Assembly: GCA_902800715.1 (NCBI GenBank)
Contig: CADCFN010000013.1
Span: forward strand, 62,001-126,000
Source of the DNA: an uncultured Bacteroidales bacterium
Lineage (GTDB): Bacteria > Bacteroidota > Bacteroidia > Bacteroidales > Muribaculaceae
DNA: 64,000 bases
Direction of reading: 5' to 3'
Under the pieces are notes generated by a model. That model was given only the letters and a program-made list of their open reading frames with translations, was not told the origin of the DNA and ran no database searches. This document shows positions 54,504 to 62,369 of this stretch, one piece after another. The position numbers were made by a program, and so were the translations under genes. The stretch's first letter is position 1. Every line of letters starts with the position of its first letter.

Positions 54504-54880
54504 AATAGTTTCCTCCTTACCTAGTCGTGAACTTATATTCTGCCTCTGCTTATGCTCTCGATTTTGGTTGTCTAACCATCTACTTTCACCTTTATAGGTG
54601 TAGATTGTGGGGATGGGACGAGGTGTGCTTGTGGTTCCATGCGGTTATCAAGGTGCGGAATTTCTTCGCAAATAGTCAATAACTCCCAAAATGTATGGAA
54701 GTCTTGCGAAAAATTACTATTTTTGCAAGGTCATAAGCCAATGAAATTGAGAGCTGATTTCGCAAGAACATATTAAAGAAAAACTTGCTAAATCATTTGC
54801 GAACATTTTGGCAATGCTAAATAATTGATAATAAACAAGATTTGAGATTCATATCCCTTTATAACCAGGTATTTGACAAG

Positions 54881-55004
54881 AAAAAATATGGTTTTTGCGA
54901 AAAATGAGTTTTAAAGGCATCAAATCATGCTAAATCAATACATTAGAACAAAAAATCATTCGCTCTATGATGAGCGATTTCAATAAAGTCCTGTTTTCAG
55001 GACG
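54881..55004 (+). promoter_or_regulatory. CRISPR leader 1
   Basis: 124 bp immediately upstream of array 1, matching leader 2 (61721-61844) at all but four positions. It contains a GAGCG-type hairpin (CGCTCTATGATGAGCG, 54961-54976) and, abutting the first repeat, a perfect GTCCTG-TTTT-CAGGAC stem-loop (54988-55003). It probably holds the array promoter. Confidence 0.8.
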
Positions 55005-55885
55005 GTTGTAGAAGCCTATCGTTTGGGTAGGTATGACAACCCGAAGAACTTGACCGTCCCATCAGAATTTCTCGTTGTAGAAGCCTATCGTTTGGGTAGG
55101 TATGACAACTTACTTCTTCTGCGCATTACTATTAGACCAACTTGTTGTAGAAGCCTATCGTTTGGGTAGGTATGACAACAAGTGCACACAATCCTCAGGA
55201 GTGAAAGACATCTCGTTGTAGAAGCCTATCGTTTGGGTAGGTATGACAACTCGTTGTTGTTGTGACCGGAAGTCTCGGTGGCAAAGTTGTAGAAGCCTAT
55301 CGTTTGGGTAGGTATGACAACTGCGTGTAGTCCAGGAACGTCAGGCTGACGTTTTGTTGTAGAAGCCTATCGTTTGGGTAGGTATGACAACCTGAAAAAT
55401 AACCTGTCAAAAATTAACAAAACTGTTGTAGAAGCCTATCGTTTGGGTAGGTATGACAACTCCTCTGCATCGATTACCTGAATGGGTGTTTGATGTTGTA
55501 GAAGCCTATCGTTTGGGTAGGTATGACAACATGGACAATGGGGAGGTTGTCTTTTCCTCATTGAGGGTTGTAGAAGCCTATCGTTTGGGTAGGTATGACA
55601 ACTCCAGTATTTGGTGCCATTCACCGGTTCAGTGAGATGTTGTAGAAGCCTATCGTTTGGGTAGGTATGACAACTCAAAAATTACTGTACCTGTTGCTAT
55701 TACTGAGACGTTGTAGAAGCCTATCGTTTGGGTAGGTATGACAACTGTGACAGCTCCACCCACAGTAACGTGATTAACAGTTGTAGAAGCCTATCGTTTG
55801 GGTAGGTATGACAACATGTTAGGATTCGGATTTTTCTTTTCCATTTTAGGTTGTAGAAGCCTATCGTTTGGGTAGGTATGACAAC
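55005..55885 (+). CRISPR. Type VI-B CRISPR array 1: 13 repeats, 12 spacers
   Basis: The 36-nt repeat begins GTTGTAGAAGCCTATCG and ends GGTAGGTATGACAAC; all 13 copies are identical (starts 55005, 55074, 55144, 55215, 55286, 55356, 55425, 55495, 55567, 55639, 55710, 55780, 55850). Spacers are 33-36 nt. Repeats with GTTG/CAAC ends and a 36-nt length are the Cas13b type, in which crRNA is spacer then repeat, read from the same strand as the leader. The array lies on the same strand as cas13b. Confidence 0.99.
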
Positions 55886-55927
55886 AAAGGCCTCCCGGTC
55901 GACAATGCGATCGAGAGGCCTTATTTT
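55886..55927 (+). terminator. Terminator after CRISPR array 1
   Basis: Arms 55887-55894 and 55915-55922 (AAGGCCTC and GAGGCCTT) around a GC-rich inner stem, followed by TTATTTT. It starts one base after the last repeat and separates array 1 from the downstream operon. Confidence 0.75.
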
Positions 55928-55992
55928 GAAAGATGCTAATAGCGGAAATCTGTTTTTTTGAGAAAAGAATTGGAGATTTGTATGGAGAACTG

Positions 55993-56000
55993 TATCTTTG
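55993..56000 (+). promoter_or_regulatory. -7 box for the membrane-protein-cas13b operon
   Basis: TATCTTTG with TTG about 20 bp upstream (GAATTGGAG, 55970); leader of about 33 nt before ATG 56039. Confidence 0.65.
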
Positions 56001-56038: not shown

Positions 56039-57667
56039 ATGGATCAACAGTCAACAAATCCAATACATCAGCTGGAACTTGAAAAAGCCATCACCTTCTT
56101 TATGGTGCCCTTCTTCTTCGATTATGAAGAATTGGACATCATTAAGAAACAAGACCGATGGCAGAAAATCTCACGCGAGATCTACAATCAGGAGGATATC
56201 CTGTATCCTTACATCATGGACGTGTTCAAGCAGAAGAACATGACAGCAAATACCCGACTGGACATTTATGAATTCAAGTCCCAGAGTAAGGGCATCAAGT
56301 CAGAATTGTTTATCGACAGGATACTGGGGAAAACCAACTATGCCGTGCTGGCCAAGAATGCCCAGGAGAAAGCCTGCCCCGCCATCGTGCCGTTCAAGCT
56401 GTGCAAAGATGAGAATTATGGGCCGCTACTGTTCATCTCTGCTGCGGCCAGGATGGGAATTTTGACATTCTCGGTAGAACTCATCGGTGCAAAGACATTG
56501 CCCGACCTTATGAACTTCAACTACTATTGCCACAAGAGGGACCAGCTGGACAGTTACAAGTGCGTGTGCATCAGGCCCGAGAAAAAGAATGACAGCTCCG
56601 CTGCCATCGACGCTCAGAGCCTATATCAAATGATCCCTGATTTCTGGAAACTGAATCAGTACAACACGAGGGAGGAAATTAATTACCTGTGCTGGAATTT
56701 TGACGAATATGTCAGCCTGCTGTTGGGGACGATGGGCAAAGCCCGTGTGGATCAATGCCGCATCAAGTATTTCACCAGTAAACGAATGCACCATTTCACT
56801 TTTTTCACGATACATGACACTGATAATCAGGTCAAAGCCGCAGATCTGCATTCCTGGATACTGCGACTGTCGCGTTGTGAAACATCAAGCTATATGTTGC
56901 CTATTGATCAGTTGGTTAAAACAGAAGCTGTGTTACAGACGTTTGAGAACATCATGTTTGCTTCGTCACTTGAGGGAACCGTGATGGCGTGTATCGGTAA
57001 AGACGTCAATTCAGCATTCATCAGGAATATCCACAGCAACTTCAGCCATCAATATCTGGTGATCTATCTGTTGGTACTCATTCAACGCTACACGCTGCAG
57101 AGCATTGAAAGACAAATTACCGAGTATGAGTCAACCGACAAGAATGATGATGTGCGGCTATGGAACCTCATCGATGTGATTTGCCGAATCAAGGTCAAAT
57201 GCTACTACACCGACGTGTCGATCTACACCCATCACAGCCAGTTCTATCAGCATTGCTGCCGCAACCTGAATATTCCTGTAACATTCAACGAGGTGGGTGA
57301 AAAAATCGAATTGCTGAAAGCCACAACCGACCGAAGAATGCAACAAGCCTTGAATGAACAGAATGCATTGTTGCAAGGGCAGCTGGAAGAACATGAAAAA
57401 GAGATTGAAGCAGCCGAGCGCCGACAGCACCTCTTGAACTGGATTGTCGCCATCTTGACCATTGCTCAGGTGATGCAATCAACATATGAATTATCCAAGC
57501 CAAGGTATTATTGGGATGACCCGGCTTTATATTGGAGTGTTGGGCTTGGGGTGTTGTGTGCAGCAATACTCATTCTTGTAATGTGGAAAGATATTAAGGC
57601 CTTCTTCAAGTCTATCTTCACAAAAAAGAAAAAAGATTCAGTGGAAAACGAAACAATCAATCAATAA
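56039..57667 (+). CDS. CorA-like two-helix membrane protein, first gene of the type VI-B operon (putative accessory)
   Basis: A 542-aa protein, 14 bp upstream of cas13b, so one transcript. Residues 1-~420 are soluble and mostly helical, with a hydrophobic helix (QYLVIYLLVLIQRYTLQ, ~340-356). A coiled coil follows at ~425-463 (QALNEQNALLQGQLEEHEKE), then TM1 at ~465-485 (LLNWIVAILTIAQVM), a short loop (PRYYWDD) and TM2 at ~497-517, and a Lys-rich tail (KKKKD). This order is that of CorA-family channels; the Mg-channel GMN motif is absent, as in the CorA-like effectors tied to type III CRISPR. No RxxxxH HEPN motif is seen. It is much larger than Csx27 or Csx28, the usual Cas13b partners. I expect a membrane effector or modulator of Cas13b; unproven. 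Confidence 0.8.
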   Translation: MDQQSTNPIHQLELEKAITFFMVPFFFDYEELDIIKKQDRWQKISREIYNQEDILYPYIMDVFKQKNMTANTRLDIYEFKSQSKGIKSELFIDRILGKTNYAVLAKNAQEKACPAIVPFKLCKDENYGPLLFISAAARMGILTFSVELIGAKTLPDLMNFNYYCHKRDQLDSYKCVCIRPEKKNDSSAAIDAQSLYQMIPDFWKLNQYNTREEINYLCWNFDEYVSLLLGTMGKARVDQCRIKYFTSKRMHHFTFFTIHDTDNQVKAADLHSWILRLSRCETSSYMLPIDQLVKTEAVLQTFENIMFASSLEGTVMACIGKDVNSAFIRNIHSNFSHQYLVIYLLVLIQRYTLQSIERQITEYESTDKNDDVRLWNLIDVICRIKVKCYYTDVSIYTHHSQFYQHCCRNLNIPVTFNEVGEKIELLKATTDRRMQQALNEQNALLQGQLEEHEKEIEAAERRQHLLNWIVAILTIAQVMQSTYELSKPRYYWDDPALYWSVGLGVLCAAILILVMWKDIKAFFKSIFTKKKKDSVENETINQ

Positions 57668-57681
57668 AAAACCTATACACT

Positions 57682-60600
57682 ATGTCTACATCAGATTCTT
57701 TCTATTCGTTCGGGGTGGACTATACCAAGACCTATGACCAACAGCCCGACTGCAGGCGTCATGTCTTTGGAGCCTATGCCAACCTGGCTCGCCACAACAT
57801 GACGCTTGTCGTGAACACTATTATGCAGGCCATCGGCATGCCAACCTTTAATGAGAATATAATCTCAGATGCATTCAACAGCACGCATCGAAAGGAAATC
57901 GACAAGCTGGACAATATCAAGAAAGTCTTGCTGCAAGAGCGCTTGTATCGTCATTTTGCATTCTTGAAACGCATGAAACTGGAGGACTCCAAGAAGAAGA
58001 CCGTACAACTGAATACGTTGCTCGAGACACTTTCTGATTTCACAAGAATGATGGCCTATATGCGCAATTTCTATACGCATTACAATCCCTATAACTCAAG
58101 GGACGAAAAAGAAAAGCAGGGCGATCTGAATAAGAAAATGGGAGAACGCCTGCAGTTCCTGCTTGAAAACAGCCTGCAGATGTTGAAGGACACCGAGAAA
58201 CTTGACCATGCCAAGAACGAGGTGTTGTCATCATTGCGTGTCCCTGAAAGAAAAACAATCAGGCCTGGCGACACTGAATACAGCAATATTCATGATCTGT
58301 ATTTCACAAAGAACAAACGGAAAGGTATCAAATACGATAAGGATACCAAAGTATTTACGCAACAAGTATATATCTTGAATCCTGCTTATCCGGCCAAGAT
58401 GACCGATAGTGACGGATATCTGTCCCTGGCGGGAATGGTGCACTTCCTCTGCCTTTTTCTCGAGAAGAAAATTGCCTTTGAGCTGATGGATGAAGTAGGG
58501 TTCACCCAGCAGTGCCATTTCAACGGAAGGGATGCTGAGCAACAGTTGCTCTATATCAAGGAGGTCATGTGCATGAACCGTGTGCGCATGGCTCAGCCTC
58601 GATTGGACAGCGAGATGAGTGATACAGCGCTGGCGCTCGACATGATCAACGAGCTGCGCAAGTGCCCTGAGCCGCTCTTCAAGGTGCTGGACAAGGAGGC
58701 ACGCAATGAGTTCAAGGACGATGCCACGGTACAGTGGGAGATGGAGCACAATGTGGAAGCCCGTCCAGGCGAGGATGAGGAGAACAACAACAATGAGGAC
58801 GACATTGAAGAACCTGATGAGACCATCCGGGAGGATAAGGCGGTACCGCGCAGCACCTTCGTGCGCTGGAATGACCGTTTCCCGCAGATGACGCTGAGCT
58901 ATATCGACATGCAATCAGTGTTGCCCACTATCCGTTTCCAGTTGTACCTGGGTAAATACCGCTTTGCTTTCTATGAACATGATAAGGAGTATAGCGTGGA
59001 CAATGCTGAACGACTGCGTGTGCTCCAAAAGGAGATGCATGGCTTTGGCCGACCCCAAGAGGTGAAGGCGAACTTGAAGGACAAATGGAAGGACTATTTT
59101 GAGCATAAGACCATCGAAAACGGCCTGACCATGAAAGAACCTGATAAGGCTGGTCAAGCGCCCTACGTGACTGAGCAGAATCCGCAGTATGCCATCGATG
59201 AAAAGAGCCACTCGATTGGAATCAGATGGGGTGAGTGGAGTAGCGGCCATGGTGGATCTCATTATGGTGACCTGGACAAGCTCAATATGTTCATCCCCTG
59301 CTTGCCCAAGCCCAAGGCTGATGAGGACAAGGATAAGCAGAGAAACCATGCAGAAAAACTCCTGCCTCCCAAGTGCATGTTGAGCCTATATGAATTGTCG
59401 GGACTTGTCTTCTACCACTATCTGCTGAAAAAGTGCGGGAAGGAAACGGGTCAGGTTGAGCGGCACATCATCACCTATCATGACAATTTAGTACGCTTCT
59501 TGACTGATGTCAAAGAAGGCACAATCATTCCAGTAACCGATGTGGATGACCCGAAGGGTTACTTGGAAAAAATGCTCATGGAGTCCTATGCCCTTCGCCT
59601 GTCTGACATTCCTGAAAGAATAAAGAAATATCTGCTTAACGAAACTAAAAGCAGAGAATATAGACTGAAGGAGTCGGCAAAGAAACGTCTAGAAATTCGC
59701 CTCAAGAAGGTGATGAAGGATTTGGAATCCCATCAGGCAAAGAAAAAAAGAATCGGTACCAAAGAGAATAAATTCAACCGCAAGAGGTCAACAATCAAAA
59801 CGGGAAAATTAGCCAAAGATCTGATCCGTGACATCATGGACTGGATGCCGCGAGGAAGTGTGGGCCGCATGAATCTTTCGGGAGAGAGTTACATGGCAAT
59901 CCAGGCAGCTCTGACGATGCTCGGACAGCAATTTGACCGGGGAAAAGCCAATGTGGAAATTTATGATTTGGTGGATATATTGGTAAAAGCCAAACTCATC
60001 ATGCCTGATAGTGATGTCGAGGGAGCAGATTTTAATCCATCACATTACCATCCTTTTATGGATGATGTCTTGACAGAGGATAGATGTGGACCAGAGACAT
60101 CATTAGAGGATGTTTATGAATGGTATCTTGAGGAGGAAATTGCACATATCAAGAGGTTGATCAGTAGCATTAACAAGGTATCGACGGATTCCTTGCTGAT
60201 GAAGCAATACAACTTGATTCCTTTCCTGCATTGTGGCCGTGAGCGCTGGAACAAGGTGGATGACGAGGCCATCAAGAAATTGGCAGAAAAATACCTGAAC
60301 AACCCGATCCAATTGCCGAACAGCCTGTTTGCAAAACCGATTTTTGAACTCCTTAAAGAGGTCGCTCAAGAGAAAAACTATGACCGGTTGTCCCAAGCAC
60401 TGGAGGCGGCCTCTCAAGATGCAAACAATTTGAGCAAAAATACGGCTTATCTGATCGGTCTTTACTTTGAAATGGTAGAGGGCGACCATAGTCAGGCTTT
60501 CTATAACTCGTGCCCGGCCGATGATGGGACCGTCAGCCCCTACCGCCACGTCTATCGGGTATTCAAGAAACTATACGGAGAAATCATTGAGAACACTAAC

Positions 60601-61677
60601 CGAACGACTTCACCTGCTTATTCTAAAAAGGAAATCAGTGACATTCTCGCTGGTAGGGAAGTGAATGGTAAGATTCTATCAGATAGAATCAGTCGCTATG
60701 TCCAAAAAGCCGTGGATGAATTCAAAAAGCAAAAAGATGATGACCTCAAACAATACAGAATAGAAATTAAGGATGCTGCCTTCAACGAGAATAGAGTTAA
60801 ACATCTGAGGAAGAAGGCTTACGAAATTTTCGAGGAAGTCGACGTCAAAGTAGATCAAAAACGTGAAGAATTCGAGCGGCTTACCGATCAATACAGGCAA
60901 GAGGTTGAAGCAAAGCTCAAGAAGTTGCTCAAGAAAGTGCAACTCAATGAGCGGGCGATTCTCCGCTTCAAGACCCAGGACATACTATTATTGATGATGT
61001 CCAGGGATATCTTGAAAATGGGCAGTGATAATGAGTTCAAGTTGGAAAATGTTCTTTCAGAGTCGCTGTTGGAGAAACGTGTGGATTTCTCCTGGAAAGT
61101 TTCTGTCAACGACCAAACAAAGGATAATGTCACCACCTACAAGACGATAGAGCAAAAGAACATGAAGATGAAGGACTACGGGCAATTCTATAAATTTGCA
61201 AGTGACCACCAGCGATTGGAGTCCTTACTGTCTCGGTTGTCGCCATCGGTATTCCAGCGTGCCGAAATTGAGAATGAGTTCTCTTATTATGACTCCAATC
61301 GTAGCGAAGTATTCAGGCTTGTCTATATTCTTGAAAGTTTTGCTCTGGAAATGAAACCGGGTCTCAAGGACGATAATAATGCAAAAGAGCCGTGGTTTAA
61401 CTACATCAGGAAGGGCAAGCCATCCCCCAAACGCAATAGCTTTATAGAATTGCTTGAAGTGTTAATAGCAGGTGCTGACGGAATACTCGATAATCAAGAG
61501 AAAGAGTTGTTACGGGAAATCCGTAATGCCTTTGGTCATAACACCTATGATGTTGATTTTGAGACAATCTTTTCAGGCCCTCGGAAAAGCAAGCGTAAAG
61601 TACCCGAAGTGGCTAATGGCATCAAAGACAATATGGAAGAAAAGACGACTAATGTCTTAGAAAAGACCAAGAAGTAG
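57682..61677 (+). CDS. cas13b: CRISPR-associated RNA-guided ribonuclease Cas13b (type VI-B)
   Basis: A 1331-aa effector that uses a crRNA to bind target RNA and then cuts RNA, also in trans. Both HEPN active sites are intact: RNFYTH at residues 128-133, with R128 and H133, near the N-terminus, and RNAFGH at 1281-1286 (followed by NTYDVD) near the C-terminus, the end-to-end placement unique to Cas13b. The region 660-715 is strongly basic (KKRLEIRLKKVMKD, KKKRIGTKENKFNRKR), probably the crRNA-binding lid/helical part. An Asp/Glu/Asn-rich insert lies at ~358-387 (GEDEENNNNEDDIEEP). At 1331 aa it is at the long end of the family (typically about 1100-1250). Start ATG 57682; codon use is like the neighbours. 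Confidence 0.97.
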   Translation: MSTSDSFYSFGVDYTKTYDQQPDCRRHVFGAYANLARHNMTLVVNTIMQAIGMPTFNENIISDAFNSTHRKEIDKLDNIKKVLLQERLYRHFAFLKRMKLEDSKKKTVQLNTLLETLSDFTRMMAYMRNFYTHYNPYNSRDEKEKQGDLNKKMGERLQFLLENSLQMLKDTEKLDHAKNEVLSSLRVPERKTIRPGDTEYSNIHDLYFTKNKRKGIKYDKDTKVFTQQVYILNPAYPAKMTDSDGYLSLAGMVHFLCLFLEKKIAFELMDEVGFTQQCHFNGRDAEQQLLYIKEVMCMNRVRMAQPRLDSEMSDTALALDMINELRKCPEPLFKVLDKEARNEFKDDATVQWEMEHNVEARPGEDEENNNNEDDIEEPDETIREDKAVPRSTFVRWNDRFPQMTLSYIDMQSVLPTIRFQLYLGKYRFAFYEHDKEYSVDNAERLRVLQKEMHGFGRPQEVKANLKDKWKDYFEHKTIENGLTMKEPDKAGQAPYVTEQNPQYAIDEKSHSIGIRWGEWSSGHGGSHYGDLDKLNMFIPCLPKPKADEDKDKQRNHAEKLLPPKCMLSLYELSGLVFYHYLLKKCGKETGQVERHIITYHDNLVRFLTDVKEGTIIPVTDVDDPKGYLEKMLMESYALRLSDIPERIKKYLLNETKSREYRLKESAKKRLEIRLKKVMKDLESHQAKKKRIGTKENKFNRKRSTIKTGKLAKDLIRDIMDWMPRGSVGRMNLSGESYMAIQAALTMLGQQFDRGKANVEIYDLVDILVKAKLIMPDSDVEGADFNPSHYHPFMDDVLTEDRCGPETSLEDVYEWYLEEEIAHIKRLISSINKVSTDSLLMKQYNLIPFLHCGRERWNKVDDEAIKKLAEKYLNNPIQLPNSLFAKPIFELLKEVAQEKNYDRLSQALEAASQDANNLSKNTAYLIGLYFEMVEGDHSQAFYNSCPADDGTVSPYRHVYRVFKKLYGEIIENTNRTTSPAYSKKEISDILAGREVNGKILSDRISRYVQKAVDEFKKQKDDDLKQYRIEIKDAAFNENRVKHLRKKAYEIFEEVDVKVDQKREEFERLTDQYRQEVEAKLKKLLKKVQLNERAILRFKTQDILLLMMSRDILKMGSDNEFKLENVLSESLLEKRVDFSWKVSVNDQTKDNVTTYKTIEQKNMKMKDYGQFYKFASDHQRLESLLSRLSPSVFQRAEIENEFSYYDSNRSEVFRLVYILESFALEMKPGLKDDNNAKEPWFNYIRKGKPSPKRNSFIELLEVLIAGADGILDNQEKELLREIRNAFGHNTYDVDFETIFSGPRKSKRKVPEVANGIKDNMEEKTTNVLEKTKK

Positions 61678-61720
61678 ATTCATCATGTGGACTCTGTAAA
61701 ATCAGGAATAGTTGACAACA

Positions 61721-61844
61721 AAAAAATATGATTTTTGCGAAAAATGAGTTTTAAAGGCATCAAATCATGCTAGATCAATACATTAGAACAAAAAATCATT
61801 CGCTCTATGATGAGCGATTTCAATAAAGTCCTGATTTCAGGACA
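61721..61844 (+). promoter_or_regulatory. CRISPR leader 2 (duplicate of leader 1)
   Basis: The same 124-bp sequence as 54881-55004 at a 6840-bp offset, with four base differences; one of them lies in the loop of the terminal stem-loop (GTCCTG-ATTT-CAGGAC, 61828-61843), leaving the stem intact. Confidence 0.85.
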
Positions 61845-62369
61845 GTTGTCTAAGCCTATCGTTTGGGTAGGTATGACAACTAGGGTTTCTTGTTTACGAT
61901 CCTTTTTCGGATTGGTTGTAGAAGCCTATCGTTTGGGTAGGTATGACAACTTGTAACGTAAACGGTGCCGAAAGGCAATCGCTTTGTTGTAGAAGCCTAT
62001 CGTTTGGGTAGGTATGACAACTTACCATCGATGTGGTACGACTGAGTAGTTGGTGTTGTAGAAGCCTATCGTTTGGGTAGGTATGACAACTTAGAGATTC
62101 TTCGATTCACTCATTAGAGTTTGTTGTAGAAGCCTATCGTTTGGGTAGGTATGACAACACTAATGGTTGCAGGTGAGGGATAGGTGCGACTGTGTTGTAG
62201 AAGCCTATCGTTTGGGTAGGTATGACAACTTTGATGTCATCATTAACAGCCTTGGCCTTCTGGGTTGTAGAAGCCTATCGTTTGGGTAGGTATGACAACT
62301 GGTTTTTTGTTAATTTTTTTCAACAACAAGGTCGTTGTAGAAGCCTATCGTTTGGGTAGGTATGACAAC
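61845..62369 (+). CRISPR. Type VI-B CRISPR array 2: 8 repeats, 7 spacers
   Basis: Repeats start at 61845, 61915, 61986, 62055, 62123, 62194, 62264 and 62334 and equal those of array 1, except the first, in which bases 6-7 are CT instead of AG. Spacers are 32-35 nt and none is shared with array 1. Same strand and same leader position (5') as array 1. A hairpin (62374-62410; arms CCGCATTGC and GCAATGCGG) follows the last repeat. Confidence 0.99.

Follow-up and report, generated by a model that had tools for sequence, protein, structure and literature searches.

The window analyzed here, a stretch of 64,000 nucleotides from an uncultured Bacteroidales bacterium of the Muribaculaceae (assembly GCA_902800715.1, contig CADCFN010000013.1, positions 62,001 to 126,000 of the forward strand), carries a type VI-B CRISPR locus in which the gene directly before cas13b encodes a CorA-like membrane protein. 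The best reading of this arrangement is that such proteins form a third class of membrane effector for Cas13b, and that their pairing with cas13b is real, recurrent and unexpected. The soluble part of the protein is homologous to the type III-B CorA effectors, its relatives lie beside cas13b in other genomes as well, and the divergence of the two partners is correlated. We consider it probable that the gene encodes a CRISPR-CorA superfamily membrane effector, which Cas13b systems have adopted instead of Csx27 or Csx28.

In the sections of the 2025 classification (PMC12669027) consulted here, Csx27 and Csx28 are the sole Cas13b accessories named, and more class 2 accessory proteins are thought probably to await discovery. 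A CorA-like gene together with Cas13b is mentioned neither in the available sections of that paper nor in those of PMC10600005, PMC11014256, PMC11229360, PMC12255297, PMC9554183 and PMC13187072; we also found no statement about it in the titles and abstract openings of open-licence PubMed Central papers, an earlier mention being possible. If our interpretation is correct, one effector family would link both RNA-targeting CRISPR types, III and VI, here without Cas10, and the pairing suggests that an immune effector of one kind has been connected to a sensor of a different kind. This would raise the question of what signal issues from the Cas13b locus and provide a natural test of how CRISPR membrane effectors change their ligand. 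Since the carriers include Palleniella muris NM73_A23 (L084) and Dysgonomonas sp. 511 (L103), it looks testable.

The CorA-like gene and cas13b

The features of the window on which the argument turns are the following.

56039-57667, + strand: CorA-like gene for a putative membrane effector, ATG start, 542 amino acids (aa) (PADLOC and hhalign)
56081-57343, + strand: part with homology to type III-B CorA effectors, residues 15-435 (hhalign)
56531-56536, + strand: His165-Lys166, where type III-B CorA has its RR pair (three MAFFT modes agree)
56777-56788, + strand: SKRM, residues 247-250, where type III-B CorA has its DDRM motif (MAFFT)
57431-57583, + strand: C-terminal membrane part with a weak first transmembrane (TM) helix, TM1 (465-483), a strong second one, TM2 (497-515), and no GMN (hydropathy)
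57682-61677, + strand: cas13b, 1331 aa (NCBIfam VI_Cas13b, NF038190, E 3.2e-140)
58063-58080, + strand: first HEPN motif, RNFYTH, residues 128-133 of Cas13b (motif search)
61522-61539, + strand: second HEPN motif, RNAFGH, residues 1281-1286 of Cas13b (motif search)

As a preliminary description of this DNA had it, the 542-aa gene ends 14 bp before cas13b, a gap that leaves little room for a second promoter. The two-gene operon sits between two CRISPR arrays with one common 36-bp repeat. Cas13b with both HEPN motifs, along with a repeat that has the GTTG...CAAC ends typical of VI-B, identifies the locus as type VI-B. The same description had proposed two C-terminal TM helices: TM2 is indeed strong (mean hydropathy 2.36), and TM1, at about 465-483 (mean 1.26), is the less certain of the two. 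It had also noted the absence of an RxxxxH motif, and a motif search for R-4to6-H, which includes RxxxxH, likewise found none in the CorA-like protein.

Homology to the type III-B CorA effectors

Judged by profile comparison, the window protein is a distant homologue of the type III-B CRISPR CorA effectors, as had been suspected from its architecture. Three alignments were used: A4, of 13 Cas13b-linked proteins (clade 1, that of the window protein); A6, of a second Cas13b-linked clade (clade 2); and A5, of seven type III-B CorA proteins. Among the A5 rows, L121 adjoins Cmr2 (TIGR02577) and NrN (PDLC01149), L124, L126 and L130 lie beside an NrN-like gene and L127 and L129 beside a DEDD-like gene; L125 has Cmr-like neighbors, with neither NrN nor DEDD found in the stretch read. 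With hhalign, A4 matched A5 at a probability of 96.9 (E 1.9e-10) over 368 columns corresponding to window residues 15-435, and the controls for A4 scored 0.1 (Cas13b), 0.2 (Csx28) and 0.2 (Csx27). Searched with A4, three of six type III loci likewise gave a match (E 3.7e-6, 4e-6 and 7.5e-4), and the two Cas13b-linked clades matched each other (A6 against A4, 97.0, E 9.3e-11).

The PADLOC CorA profile (PDLC01043) matches residues 316-446 of the window protein (E 2.9e-7). This profile has some match in 122 of 295 genomes of the order, many of them weak and mostly at profile positions of about 340-450, which likely come from ordinary CorA channels; unlike these, the match of the window protein covers positions 264-389. 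In clade 2 the same profile matches L019 (1.2e-8) and L022 (1.1e-4). Pfam and NCBIfam gave nothing above cut-off for the window protein, including no match to Pfam CorA, and a search of the PDB with this single protein returned only VAMP2 at E 0.15. The type III-B profile (A5), for its part, matches solved CorA channels at E of about 1e-7, through the membrane part.

It is useful to set the protein against the systems that it most resembles. Like the type III-B CorA of the Bacteroides fragilis type, a receptor of S-adenosylmethionine-AMP (SAM-AMP), it is about 500 aa long, homologous over residues 15-435, has a soluble sensor followed by two C-terminal TM helices and is CRISPR-linked in Bacteroidales. 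It differs from it in being linked to Cas13b rather than Cas10, with no NrN or DEDD found near, in having HK for RR, SK for DD and no GMN, and in falling in a separate clade of the tree. Csx28 (VI-B2), an octameric pore, is likewise a membrane partner of Cas13b, with membrane depolarization as the proposed output of both, but no sequence relation was found: the Csx28 of our control locus L098 is short (192 aa), has one predicted TM helix and lies downstream of cas13b, and the CorA-like protein is without the R-4to6-H motif. Csx27 (VI-B1) shares the gene position directly upstream of cas13b, but again no sequence relation was found; it is smaller, with four predicted TM helices, and its carriers occupy another sector of the Cas13b tree. 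The claim that the gene is neither csx27 nor csx28 thus holds up at the level of sequence, and on sequence we reject a relationship to either: besides the hhalign values of 0.2 each, the NCBIfam models for Csx27 (NF040557) and Csx28 (NF040556) do not match the window protein and do match their controls (L056, E 1.5e-60; L098, E 4.4e-45).

The housekeeping CorA Mg2+ channel, finally, also has two C-terminal TM helices and is reached through the type III-B profile, but not through A4 itself. That the gene is an ordinary divalent-cation transporter which happens to stand beside cas13b is, in our estimation, exceedingly improbable. The weak PADLOC matches spread over many genomes of this order would fit a transporter, but the protein has no Pfam CorA match, no GMN and no match to solved CorA channels, and four close relatives, together with further homologues, stand beside cas13b (see below). 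We have rejected a plain Mg2+ transporter on the Pfam result, the missing GMN and the recurrent linkage.

Linkage to cas13b in other genomes

Two overlapping sets of Cas13b loci were surveyed. The first, collected with the NCBIfam Cas13b profile, came from 12 of 397 genomes of the family sample, 15 of 393 of the order sample (22 with any match) and 3 of 395 of the phylum sample (5 with any match). Genomes below the cut-off (7 in the order sample and 2 in the phylum sample, one of them in both) were left out; in the four such stretches that were fetched (L068-L071), BLAST found no CorA-like open reading frame (ORF). The 27 different genomes of this set have a CorA-like gene beside cas13b in 7 cases, csx27 in 3 and neither in 9, with 8 undecided at contig ends. 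The second set, 37 loci from a scan of the genome collection with a bait alignment of eight Cas13b sequences, has a CorA-like neighbor in 16 (12 of clade 1 and 4 of clade 2), a proportion that overstates the prevalence because the bait profile is rich in rows with such a neighbor (five of eight: P0002, L026, L058 and L060 with clade 1, L022 with clade 2); the scan also favors Cas13b proteins that resemble those rows. Of the others, one has csx28, 11 have none of these genes, 8 are undecided at contig ends and one (L108) has Cas13b in fragments.

The adjacency of the two genes exceeds chance, because in four other genomes relatives with 39-47% identity along most of the protein lie directly upstream of cas13b. 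These closest relatives (L072, L073, L074 and L075) have BLAST identities of 43, 47, 42 and 39% at E 1e-112 or better, and 39-48% over the full alignment; the accompanying Cas13b proteins are 43-52% identical to that of the window. Elsewhere the CorA-like gene is divergent from cas13b (L091, L092, L093, L103) or downstream of it (L082, L084, L102), so that the linkage survives rearrangement. A neighborhood survey had been proposed at the outset for Cas13b proteins longer than 1250 aa: the linkage does recur, but since the Cas13b of complete CorA carriers ranges from about 1120 to 1340 aa (one ORF reads 1469), size does not define the carriers. For comparison, csx27 is directly upstream of cas13b in L056, L059 and L035 and encodes 228-235 aa. 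A scan of viral contigs with the Cas13b alignment gave no relative, and no homologue was found on plasmids.

Other genes are found beside cas13b as well. At L086 (3497-13033) a gene for a 1256-aa triple AAA ATPase (SpoVK/CbbX-like) lies directly upstream of the CorA-like gene and cas13b, the three genes sharing a strand. At L099 (3973-4959) and L100 (8372-9418) a gene of 328-348 aa precedes cas13b and could be another accessory; that of L099 has weak matches to MqsA-type antitoxin and Panacea-like profiles, below the curated cut-offs, and that of L100 was judged by position only.

Phylogeny and co-divergence

In the Cas13b tree, built by a quick method from 49 rows after five had been dropped (one duplicate and four fragments), all 18 CorA carriers fall in one sector of 36 rows, together with 10 non-carriers and 8 undecided rows. 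Outside this sector lie the carriers of Csx27 (three) and of Csx28 (one). On the 37 labeled rows (18 of them CorA) the CorA label requires 7 changes, a number matched by only 1 of 500 shuffles. The CorA tree (33 rows; 13 of its 30 inner branches starred and 9 open) places the type III-B proteins in one clade (100), with clade 1 (99) comprising 16 proteins, 13 of them Cas13b-linked, and clade 2 (99) comprising nine, five of them Cas13b-linked. The proposal that the locus represents a distinct VI-B subtype is not supported by the trees: there are two CorA clades, and carriers are mixed with non-carriers within one sector, with at least seven changes. We have accordingly rejected a single new subtype.

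The distances among the CorA-like proteins and among their Cas13b partners are correlated (Mantel r 0.89, p 0.0001, 13 pairs); this persists after thinning of close relatives (r 0.64, p 0.009, 8 pairs) and within clade 2 (r 0.87, p 0.008, 5 pairs).

Relatives away from cas13b and other counterarguments

Several observations weigh against the interpretation of these proteins as Cas13b-adopted CRISPR-CorA effectors. To the inflated count of the bait-selected set must be added that shared descent of the hosts can also yield a Mantel correlation, and that 10 readable rows of the carrier sector, among them L076 of the window's own clade, have no CorA-like neighbor, implying that Cas13b can do without such a partner. 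In the window protein TM1 is only weakly hydrophobic and the GMN motif is absent, and the A4 profile has no match among solved chains up to E 1. Clade 2 is less well tied to the type III-B proteins (A6 against A5, probability 75.9, E 2.3e-5, 105 columns), and its member L023, placed there by BLAST with L094 (1e-44) and L083 (3e-28), has no PADLOC CorA match. Finally, CorA-like relatives occur alone or near other genes, one of them in the window's own genome (L154).

The family is not, in fact, exclusive to Cas13b. With the window protein as sole bait, homologues were found in 4 of 101 genomes of the genus, and only one of the four, that of the window, lies beside cas13b. With the A4 profile as bait, matches came from 7 of 334 genomes of the order and 2 of 69 of the family. 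Homologues at the level of clade 1 (E < 1e-10; the weak CorA matches of G711, G690 and G642 left out) come from eight genomes, of which four (G000, the window genome, and G128, G432 and G737, their proteins already being rows of A4) have the gene beside cas13b; the other four (G022, G062, G066, G435) show no cas13b in view, with the contig of G435 ending within the gene and that of G022 about 0.4 kb upstream of it. The concern that homologues might lie mostly away from Cas13b is consequently not borne out in any simple way: clade-1-level homologues are beside cas13b in four of eight genomes, all four being profile rows, and with the single protein as bait in one of four.

The neighbors of these other relatives are varied. 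In L028 (3995-9534) the CorA-like gene lies directly before a gene for a 1376-aa NACHT/Avs2-like protein, and in L118 (1-6792) it is about 1.4 kb from one of 1363 aa, convergent, with two ORFs between; the NACHT matches of both are below the Pfam cut-off, and the Avs2 matches are at E 7.9e-9 and 9.5e-11. In L117 the CorA-like gene, which is cut, is two genes before an AAA-kinase-TPR gene. In L155 (396-4389) and L157 (866-4626) it is flanked by a TPR-SpoIIE phosphatase gene on one side and, on the other, a gene with a product of about 210 aa, possibly another defense or signaling unit. L029, L030, L120 and L154 have no obvious partner gene. Two side observations may be recorded here. In both L028 and L118 the NACHT/Avs2-like gene is followed by an ORF that, by eye, resembles a glycerophosphodiester phosphodiesterase. 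The second CorA-like gene of the window genome (L154, contig C3, 7282-8595, - strand) belongs to clade 2 and encodes 437 aa; for about 7 kb around it there is no Cas13b match and, to the eye, no evident sensor.

A putative sensor pocket and the question of SAM-AMP

In the CorA of B. fragilis, mutation of R152-R153 and D219-D220 leads to loss of immunity, although the authors caution that the mutants may instead have an altered quaternary structure (Chi et al. 2023, PMC10600005). From their position and motif, we presume these pairs to be the GRR and DDRM motifs of A5. The residues aligned with RR are HK in 11 of the 13 clade-1 proteins and CK and RK in the other two (three MAFFT modes agree). 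The DD pair is lost in all 13. DDRM is present in 7/7 rows of A5, 0/13 of A4 and 0/6 of A6, and GMN in 6/7, 0/13 and 0/6, respectively. Just after the lost DD place clade 1 has an invariant histidine (H251). This residue, along with N161 and K166 (and mostly H165), is kept both in the Cas13b-linked clade-1 proteins and in L028, L029 and L030, which have no Cas13b in view. Of these relatives, the solo L030 keeps DD.

In view of the homology over most of its length to a SAM-AMP-binding CorA, one might suppose that the protein is gated in trans by SAM-AMP or a cyclic oligoadenylate from a type III system; the DD of L030 would be in keeping with this, as would genome G169, which carries, besides its Cas13b-CorA locus, a type III-B locus on another contig that includes a CorA and an NrN of its own. 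We regard such gating as very improbable. Cas10 was not found in six of the seven Cas13b-CorA genomes searched, among them the window genome (3.3 Mb in draft form, 89% complete; no PF22335 match), in agreement with the preliminary description. DDRM, moreover, separates the type III-B proteins cleanly from both Cas13b-linked clades, and the NrN and DEDD profiles, the two degrading enzymes covered here (SAM-AMP lyase lay outside the search), are silent in all 47 Cas13b stretches, that of the window among them; these represent 46 different loci, L026 and L077 being the same. These profiles matched 4 and 2, respectively, of six type III control loci, hence all six, but all 4 NrN rows and 2 of the 4 DEDD rows of the profiles came from these very controls, and the result demonstrates that the search runs and not how far it reaches. 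The PADLOC model of NrN also found nothing in the window genome and three others, in a search without a positive control. A SAM-AMP pathway transplanted as a whole was rejected on the same grounds: no Cas10 in the draft genome, no NrN or DEDD in the 47 stretches, and both DD and GMN lost.

Mode of action

By analogy with its relatives, the CorA-like protein would oligomerize as a funnel with a C-terminal bundle of TM helices; once Cas13b had recognized phage RNA, the pore would open and the membrane depolarize, and the infected cell would stop growing. The least certain step is the trigger, which may be a small ligand bound in the re-shaped sensor pocket and derived from the collateral RNA cleavage of Cas13b (RNA ends or nucleotides). 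To our knowledge Cas13b makes no messenger, so its own RNA products or a direct contact are the natural candidates. A ligand, presumably a signal other than SAM-AMP, is tentatively and slightly favored, because the same pocket set is common to the Cas13b-linked proteins and to three relatives without Cas13b in view. There are precedents for parts of this scheme: the type III CorA gives immunity and requires its TM part (PMC10600005), Csx28 is a pore that enhances Cas13b defense (PMC12669027), and an Actinomyces clade of CorA without SAM-AMP-degrading enzymes has been proposed to sense cyclic hexa-adenylate, cA6 (PMC11229360), implying that CorA effectors may change ligand.

Alternatively, target-bound Cas13b, or its CRISPR RNA complex, could open the same pore by touching it directly, with no ligand diffusing between them and the pocket being only structural. 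This is conceivable, if on the unlikely side. The correlated distances of the two proteins would agree with it, as would the loss of the DD pair and the lack of a Cas10 match in the window genome (Cas10 being the one cyclase looked for); Csx28, too, works with Cas13b without a known messenger in the accounts available. Direct contact would nevertheless leave unexplained why N161, K166 and H251 are kept in L028, L029 and L030, and the changes on the Cas13b tree, at least seven, suggest an easy exchange between divergent Cas13b proteins. A bolder extension of the ligand scheme, which we think rather unlikely, is that collateral cleavage by Cas13b itself makes a messenger that opens the CorA-superfamily pore, and that this receptor family serves NACHT-like and other sensors as well; type VI would then possess a signaling arm analogous to that of Cas10, without a cyclase.

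A quite different possibility is that the protein regulates Cas13b or tethers it to the membrane, rather than acting as a killing pore. The gene does occupy the position that csx27 has in L056, L059 and L035, and many cas13b loci have no CorA-like gene. In the 2017 work of Smargon, Csx27 is reported to repress and Csx28 to enhance Cas13b, which would favor a regulator; in the available text of PMC12669027, both are said to augment Cas13b. However, the type III-B relatives are effectors required for immunity (PMC10600005), and the position of other relatives close to NACHT-like, AAA-kinase and TPR-phosphatase genes points to an output module. On balance a purely regulatory role seems improbable to us, and an adopted pore effector is the reading that we retain.

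CRISPR arrays and flanking sequences

The remaining features of the locus lie on either side of the operon.

54870-55004, + strand: leader of CRISPR array 1 (by eye), with a near-copy at about 61703-61844 before array 2
55005-55885, + strand: CRISPR array 1, 13 repeats GTTGTAGAAGCCTATCGTTTGGGTAGGTATGACAAC and 12 spacers of 33-36 bp
55887-55930, + strand: inverted repeat after array 1, terminator-like (by eye; unconfirmed, absent from the scan's list)
55970-56000, + strand: putative Bacteroidetes-type promoter before the CorA-like gene, TTG-N20-TATCTTTG (by eye)
61845-62369, + strand: CRISPR array 2, 8 repeats (the first degenerate) and 7 spacers, repeat as in array 1

The promoter call presumes TAnnTTTG to be the consensus of this type. 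Searches of phage records gave no match for the spacers of array 1 and only chance-level matches (E 0.5) for those of array 2; the central 24-mers of three of the 19 spacers had no match in viral contigs. Cas1 was not found in the draft genome (89% complete), and the arrays may depend on adaptation genes outside the assembly or outside the genome. Each leader folds with a stable hairpin of its own just 5' of the first repeat (54955-55040 and 61796-61881), the internal hairpin of the repeat being kept; this differs from the leader-repeat hairpin of other VI-B arrays, as described in the available sections of PMC13187072.

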